From positions 1 to 64,000 of the forward strand of contig JANYHE010000136.1 in assembly GCA_025359215.1 (NCBI GenBank): a stretch of 64,000 bases of DNA, read 5' to 3'. Each line of letters starts with the position of its first letter. Within the stretch, counting starts at the first letter, position 1. A program made the position numbers and the translations under genes. The notes under the pieces were generated by a model, which did not search any database, was not told the DNA's origin, and saw only the letters and a list, made by a program, of their open reading frames with translations. The DNA comes from Hyphomicrobiales bacterium (GTDB lineage: Bacteria; Pseudomonadota; Alphaproteobacteria; Rhizobiales; Aestuariivirgaceae). This document shows, in pieces, positions 1,928 to 4,091 of this stretch.

Positions 1928-2039
1928 CGCCCTGTAACATTGCCGCCGCAGCCTTATATTTGCAAGCCCGTAGCAAAATTCCCCAGTTTTGCCGCAATTG
2001 CACCAAGTCTTGGACATGTTGCAGGACAATAGTTTGTTT

Positions 2040-2195
2040 GTTGCCTCGACAGCCCGGCTGGCTCAGAGCTTTGGTTTAGCCCCCCAGCCCCCCGAAGCGC
2101 GTTTTGCCGGCCGGGCACCCTATCTATCAAGACTCGAGTTTGTGAGTCCGTTGCGTAAAGTTGGGCGGTTGCAGTTGCAACCGCCTCTTTTTTTT
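2040..2195 (+). ncRNA. Candidate small RNA (5' end unknown) ending in an intrinsic terminator, upstream of htpG
   Basis: Intergenic; stem GCCCGGC(2052-2058)/GCCGGGC(2110-2116), hairpin GACTC(2131-2135)/GAGTC(2144-2148), terminator 2164-2195; htpG has its own promoter-like sequence downstream. Confidence 0.5.
2164..2195 (+). terminator. Strong Rho-independent terminator with no annotated gene upstream on this strand
   Basis: GGCGGTTGC-AGTT-GCAACCGCC (perfect 9-bp stem, 4-nt loop) followed by TCTTTTTTTT. Confidence 0.85.
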
Positions 2196-2252: not shown

Positions 2253-4091
2253 ATGACCAAACCAAAACCGCAAGAATTCCAAGCTGAAGTCGGCAAATTG
2301 CTGCACATGATGGTGCATTCGGTTTATTCTGACCGCGATGTATTCTTGCGCGAGCTGATTTCCAACGCGTCTGATGCACTTGATAAATTGCGCTATCAAG
2401 CCATCGCCAAGCCTGATTTGTTGGAACAAGACCCCAAGCTCGAAATCAAGTTGACTGCTGACAAAACCGCCAAAACCTTGACCATCGAAGATTCTGGCAT
2501 TGGCATGTCATCCAAGGAACTCACCGATAATCTCGGCACTATTGCTAAATCCGGCACGCAAGGTTTTGTTGAAAAGGCCAAAGATGGTCCAAGCCTCATC
2601 GGGCAATTTGGTGTGGGCTTCTATGCCGCTTTCATGGTAGCCTCAGAAGTCGAAGTGTTTTCCCGCAAAGCTGGAGCCAAAGCCTGCAATGTGTGGCGCT
2701 CAAATGGCGAAGGCACTTTTACTGTTGAAGAAGCTGACACGCAAAATCGCGGCACCCGCATTGTTTTACATTTGCGTGATGATGCCAACGACTATCTGGA
2801 AGATTGGAAATTGGAGCAGGTCGTACAAGCCTATTCCGACCACATTGCCCACCCCATTATGCTGGCTGGCGAAGGTGAGCCCCGCCAGATCAATTCCGCT
2901 AGTGCCATTTGGATGAAGCCAAAAGGCGAAATCACGGCTGAACAGCACAAAGAATTTTTTGGCCTTCTTAACCATTCATCAGACGCTCCAGCGCTGACCA
3001 TTCATTACCGCGCCGAAGGCAGGCAAGAATATAACGTGCTGCTTTATGTGCCAGGCGAGCGCCCGTTTGATTTGTATGACCCTGAACGCAAGGGCAAACA
3101 GAAGCTTTATGTGAAACGTGTTTTTATTGCTGATGATGTGGGCCTGCTGCCACCTTACCTGCGCTTTGTGCGCGGCGTGATTGACAGTGCCGATATGCCA
3201 CTGAATCTTTCGCGTGAGATGCTGCAAAATAATCCTGATGTCGCCGTTATCAGAAAGGCCGTGGGCAACCGTGTGCTTTCAGAACTAAAAAAATGCGCCG
3301 AAAATGATGCCCCTACTTTCAAGAAGATCTGGGATACTTTTGGCCCGGTCATCAAAGAAGGCCTTTATGAAGATTTTGAACGCCGTGAAGCGCTGTTCGA
3401 AATTGCCAAATTCAAATCAACAAAATCAGACGCAGTCACTCTCAAAGATTACATTGAAGGGCTGAAGGAAAATCAAACCGCAATCTATTATCTCGCCGCA
3501 GAAGATGCGTCCAAGGCCAGTGCCAGCCCCCAGCTTGAAGGCTACAAGGCGCGTGATGTTGAAGTGCTTCTCCTCACCGACCCTGTTGATAGTTTCTGGG
3601 TGCGCACGGCCATGGGCTTTGAAGGCAAGCCTTTCAAATCAGTGGCGCAAGGCTCAGCTGATTTAGACTTGATGAAAACTAAAGACGAAGCACCCAATGC
3701 AAAGTCTGATGCTCCTGAGACTGCGTCGCTCATCGCCGCCTTCAAGCAAGTACTAGGTGCGCGCGTTTCAGATGTGCGTGTGTCAAAACGATTGACTGAT
3801 AGCGCAGTGTGCCTTGTCAATGATGGACAAATGGACCGCACCTTGGAAAAGCTTCTCTCTCGTCAAAAAGATTCGGGCGTTTCCATCAGTGCGCCTGTGC
3901 TTGAAATTAATGCGAACCATGGCTTAATCAAAGCGCTTGGTAAAATGGCACAGGACAAAGGCGACGCATCGGTTGATGATGCTGCACATCTGCTGCTGGA
4001 CCAAGCCTTCATGATGGAAGGTGAAATTGTGGCTGAGCCCGCTGATTTTGCCAAGCGTTTAGCCAATGTCATGTCAAAGGCTTTTGTGTAA
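2253..4091 (+). CDS. htpG: Molecular chaperone HtpG (Hsp90)
   Basis: MTKPKPQEFQAEVGKLLHMMVHSVYSDRDVFLRELISNASDALDKLRY...; start at 2253 from homology pattern and RBS. Confidence 0.97.
   Translation: MTKPKPQEFQAEVGKLLHMMVHSVYSDRDVFLRELISNASDALDKLRYQAIAKPDLLEQDPKLEIKLTADKTAKTLTIEDSGIGMSSKELTDNLGTIAKSGTQGFVEKAKDGPSLIGQFGVGFYAAFMVASEVEVFSRKAGAKACNVWRSNGEGTFTVEEADTQNRGTRIVLHLRDDANDYLEDWKLEQVVQAYSDHIAHPIMLAGEGEPRQINSASAIWMKPKGEITAEQHKEFFGLLNHSSDAPALTIHYRAEGRQEYNVLLYVPGERPFDLYDPERKGKQKLYVKRVFIADDVGLLPPYLRFVRGVIDSADMPLNLSREMLQNNPDVAVIRKAVGNRVLSELKKCAENDAPTFKKIWDTFGPVIKEGLYEDFERREALFEIAKFKSTKSDAVTLKDYIEGLKENQTAIYYLAAEDASKASASPQLEGYKARDVEVLLLTDPVDSFWVRTAMGFEGKPFKSVAQGSADLDLMKTKDEAPNAKSDAPETASLIAAFKQVLGARVSDVRVSKRLTDSAVCLVNDGQMDRTLEKLLSRQKDSGVSISAPVLEINANHGLIKALGKMAQDKGDASVDDAAHLLLDQAFMMEGEIVAEPADFAKRLANVMSKAFV

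Follow-up and report, generated by a model that had tools for sequence, protein, structure and literature searches.

Several small RNAs (sRNAs) with structural features in common have been described in Alphaproteobacteria, and three of these, BjrC174, CC3664 and PmaR, have so far been treated as separate lineage-restricted RNAs. BjrC174 (Rfam RF02355) is described as abundant, with a promoter whose activity was demonstrated with lacZ (PMC4842269). PmaR was said by its authors to occur only in Agrobacterium and one Rhizobium strain; they showed that a CCCA-to-UUUU change in its loop abolished both the regulation of its targets, ampC and murB among them, and binding in vitro (PMC6234868). For CC3664 (RF01530), from Caulobacter, and for DUF2794 in combination with an sRNA, a literature search found no reports. 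Here an RNA of the same general kind is described from a 64-kb stretch of DNA (the window). With a probability of roughly three in four, we take it to be an independent trans-acting sRNA, structured and about 156 nt long, that has a promoter region and a terminator of its own, carries a C-rich loop that would pair with mRNAs and belongs to a widespread alphaproteobacterial family that lies divergent from DUF2794 and includes BjrC174 and probably CC3664.

The sRNA gene (2040-2195, + strand) is flanked by a divergent DUF2794 gene (1565-1927, - strand; PF10984, E 3.5e-35) and by htpG, encoding HSP90 (2253-4091, + strand; PF00183, E 1.2e-104). It comprises a match to the covariance model R3 (2040-2117) together with a Rho-independent terminator, the T tract of which forms the 3' end; the putative 5' end at 2040 is read from conservation and from the spacing to a -10-like site. 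The near-invariant 5' sequence GUUGCCUC (2040-2047; alignments A1 and A2) is followed by helix P1 of 11 bp (2052-2062/2106-2116), which encloses helix P2 of 7 bp (2068-2074/2092-2098) and a C-rich apical loop of 17 nt, UUUAGCCCCCCAGCCCC (2075-2091). Within this loop, a putative pairing seed, AGCCCCCCAGCCCC is nearly invariant across 95 order-wide members. Downstream of P1 the sequence and the minimum free energy structure show a linker hairpin, GACUC/GAGUC (2131-2135/2144-2148), which is kept only in part among close relatives. The terminator (2163-2195) consists of GGCGGTTGC (2164-2172), the loop AGTT, GCAACCGCC (2177-2185) and T8 (2188-2195), with a G2163-T2186 wobble pair added to the stem by the terminator scan. 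When 2040-2195 was folded, P1 and P2 stacked and the linker hairpin and terminator formed after them (z = -4.3 relative to dinucleotide-shuffled sequences); in this model the stacked helices would present the C-rich loop as a single strand.

A first-pass annotation of this DNA had proposed an independent sRNA, some 150-190 nt long, at this place, and the conserved structure on the + strand, the upstream element and terminator belonging to the RNA and the separate promoter-like site of htpG all support that proposal. The features on which it had drawn were recovered: the perfect 9-bp, 4-nt-loop terminator with U8 (2164-2195) to the base, the 5-bp hairpin at 2131-2148, the divergent orientation of DUF2794 and a terminator for BI-1 at 1540-1566. 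The GC stem that it placed at 2052-2058/2110-2116 is exact and forms the outer part of what is now the longer P1. Helix P2, the invariant loop, the conserved 5' end and the conserved upstream element are additions to that description.

A search of the DUF2794-htpG intergenic DNA covered 61 genomes, and each of the 29 comparable genus loci has the element between these two divergent genes, mostly with BI-1 beyond. In the genus alignment the 5' GUUGCCUC, the GCCCGG that begins P1 and the loop core are almost invariant, and the other helix positions vary. A covariance model built from the genus loci (R1) matched 144 of the 298 order genomes searched, representing 72 of 122 genera. Among 72 order loci outside the genus (fetched stretches, not all from different genomes and some cut by contig ends), DUF2794 was in range in 52 and htpG in 38, and DUF2794 was present with no htpG found in 22. 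At class level a second model, R2, had matches in 17 of 387 genomes, for the most part next to DUF2794. In some lineages (f20) the RNA lies far from DUF2794, and in families lacking R1 matches more diverged versions were seen beside DUF2794 in some genomes, and in others no version could be recognised. In one family (f90) three genomes have three to four copies apiece. Some stand in tandem in the DUF2794-htpG interval, where those preceding htpG are spaced about 200 bp apart, and others lie near neither gene. The three are among the f90 genomes G363, G491, G587 and G664 (loci L140-L142, L144 and L149-L155), and the sRNA copied in them is a C-rich-loop variant, GUUGGCCUCGUC...GUAGCCCCCAAGCCC.

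Both helices are supported by covariation as well as by the fold, with compensatory changes across the order in every modelled P1 pair and in 9/9 P2 pairs. The order-wide alignment A2 (95 members), which was fitted to the structure and hence leans toward it, shows double-sided changes in 19/19 modelled pairs (317 cells, where shuffles gave 65), and pairing falls from 94% to about 55% when the partner is slid by one column. A genus-only MAFFT alignment made before any structure fitting also contained seven pairs with double changes, compared with 2.5. The excess of G-U cells (209) over A-C cells (15) assigns the RNA to the + strand. In 58 of 94 members the core is followed on the + strand by a terminator satisfying a strict criterion; the count for the - strand, where only chance occurrences are expected, is 17. 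When the genus was excluded, covariation was the same as in A2; this alignment (A3) holds 89 matches from outside the genus and was aligned with R2, which did include it. The model built from A3 (R3) recovers the window element at 68.1 bits as the sole match in the window (E 1.6e-11) and also as the sole match in the whole 3.0-Mb genome (E 7.9e-10), these E-values being rough owing to a short calibration. The conserved structure sought in relatives is thus present. Several genus loci (L018-L036) have a GAGGC in the linker after P1 that could pair with the 5' GCCUC to give an outer helix. As a general feature this outer helix was set aside, since the pairing occurs in only 11 of 69 order-wide members (2.6 expected) and so in a subset. 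A coding reading was rejected: an in-frame ORF beginning with TTG (1989-2252) has no Pfam match, and relatives show non-triplet indels in the conserved region.

Upstream of the sRNA there is an element conserved across the order (1987-2033, + strand), beginning TTTTGCCGCAATTGCACCAAG and including the -10-like CAATAG (2027-2032), which we infer to be the promoter or activator region of the sRNA. Its pattern, TTT-GCC-N-TTC-GCC...GCC, lies at a fixed distance from the 5' end of the sRNA throughout the order, and GCC recurs at roughly 11-base intervals (1987-2015 in the window and the equivalent place order-wide). This is possibly a site at which an activator acts on the sRNA, or else on both divergent genes. 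The dispersed f90 copies, which do not adjoin DUF2794, retain a similar element (by eye), and for this reason the element seems to go with the sRNA rather than with DUF2794. Elsewhere in the window, upstream of BI-1, an ORF at 176-712 gives a sub-threshold match to an IS1-type transposase (20.8 against 24.1 bits).

In the window, as in many relatives, the element immediately precedes htpG, and its terminator lies before the gene; this arrangement would suit a conditional 5' leader or attenuator of htpG in which transcription stops unless a signal, such as heat, permits it to read on. This had been offered as the alternative in the first-pass annotation and did not gain support. The promoter-like TTGACG-N16-CAATAT that was claimed for htpG is present downstream of the terminator (2200-2227, + strand), and a TTGAC...ATAT match is found at this place in 19 of 22 genus relatives, which suggests that htpG has a promoter of its own. 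The 22 of 72 outside-genus loci with DUF2794 and without htpG in the fetched stretch, and the extra f90 copies away from both genes, also argue against a leader, and no further structure that would exclude the terminator was seen in the fold. We therefore consider a leader very improbable. Judged by sequence only, the RNA appears to have the promoter and Rho-independent terminator of its own that are expected of a trans-acting sRNA rather than of a leader. The possibility that the RNA is of the mmgR/alpha-r8 (RF00519) or L20-leader type draws on scores of 17-20 bits to RF00519 and RF00558; these matches mainly concern the terminator, the RF00519 score in the window is 17.2 bits against a gathering score of 41, and the true mmgR of the same genome is on another contig. 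This identity can be regarded as refuted. That true mmgR/alpha-r8 copy (L001, G000:C15:2293-2371) scores 65.3 bits. Matches to L20/L21 leaders and to sRNA-Xcc1 were likewise sub-threshold and were rejected as helix or terminator look-alikes.

On comparative sequence evidence, the structure, strand, conservation, synteny and homology of the RNA are established; what it does is approached here by analogy. As a trans-acting sRNA it would be transcribed from its own promoter region and end at its own terminator, and the C-rich loop, perhaps together with the 5' GUUGCCUC, would pair with G-rich stretches of several mRNAs and affect how stable these are or how well they are translated, in the way that the C-rich PmaR loop acts. 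Such a mechanism would require nothing specific to htpG. Antisense pairing through the loop, with regulation of other genes, is its probable mode of action. A search of 37 genus genomes for the exact 12-base loop complement, GGGGCTGGGGGG, found it mainly at the sRNA locus itself; because the other sites are few and shared no gene by tblastx, no target is claimed. The near absence of the full complement beyond the sRNA locus in most genus genomes would also fit a structured RNA that uses its C-rich loop to bind or titrate a protein, or a different sRNA, and not to pair with mRNAs, as would a loop that is almost invariant across the order, which is more than a seed for multiple targets needs; taken by itself, the invariance could equally mark a protein-binding site. 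We nevertheless think titration unlikely, given that those alphaproteobacterial C-rich loops that have been tested for function, in GsrN (PMC5869019) and PmaR (PMC6234868), pair with mRNAs, and we retain mRNA pairing as the preferred reading.

An Rfam scan found no family at its gathering score for the window RNA, and below threshold the element goes with BjrC174. The window RNA reaches 12.6 bits with RF02355, for which the cut-off is 45, and it is for this reason not filed under RF02355 as currently defined. RF02355, which was built independently of the models used here, scores at the same loci in 24 of 61 relatives (E 0.01), once above the cut-off. Two loci that score with it, L138 (called BjrC174 by Rfam at 175 bits) and L069 (53 bits), adjoin DUF2794 as the window RNA does. 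The L138 copy was also found by R2 (51.4 bits), although its genome, G071, was absent from the training set; that set held related Bradyrhizobium-type sequences, and this was not a fully independent clade test. R3 covers both the window type and the BjrC174 type, with two nested helices and a CAGCCCCC-AGCCCC loop. The two types share their position divergent from DUF2794, the two-helix fold, the CAGCCCCC(C)AGCCCCCC loop and a downstream terminator; they differ in an additional outer helix and a first tract of five Cs, both found in the Bradyrhizobium members. These sequence and structural comparisons place the window RNA, as a divergent member, in a family that takes in BjrC174 and is broader than Rfam describes. 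Near DUF2794, L138 also contains a long, near-perfect inverted repeat (2215-2302), which matches miRNA models by structure only and is perhaps a REP-like element.

To our knowledge, few sRNAs outside the enterobacteria are this deeply conserved with this much covariation. The sequence comparisons indicate that the window RNA is a real, independent sRNA of a family known until now only from narrow samples. Recognition of one order-wide family beyond the narrow models of Rfam supplies a covariance model for annotation, and it also provides a ready test system in Bradyrhizobium and Caulobacter with a defined loop to mutate.

The relation to CC3664 is less certain. The window scores 13.9 bits against the RF01530 cut-off of 60 and so does not reach the gathering score, and CC3664 resembles the window RNA in having a loop AGCCCCCCCAGCCCC inside nested helices, whereas its helices are longer and of other sequence. 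One sub-threshold relative (L159) adjoins DUF2794, and the only copy above the cut-off (L158) is not near it. Homology of CC3664 with the window RNA is thus probable. GsrN, the general-stress sRNA of Caulobacter, also exposes a C-rich loop and has G-rich putative target sites, but it is controlled by sigma-T and is usually found near sigT/phyR genes, and synteny with DUF2794 has not been reported for it (PMC5869019). PmaR (C10), the locus of which lies between two hypothetical ORFs, has a long stem and an accessible C-rich loop with CCCA followed by G62 (PMC6234868), a likeness drawn from its description only. It may be suggested, tentatively and at slightly less than even odds, that BjrC174, CC3664 and perhaps PmaR belong with the window RNA to a single ancient alphaproteobacterial sRNA family beside DUF2794 with its own upstream element, a core riboregulator in which the invariant C-rich loop would have the same conserved partner everywhere.
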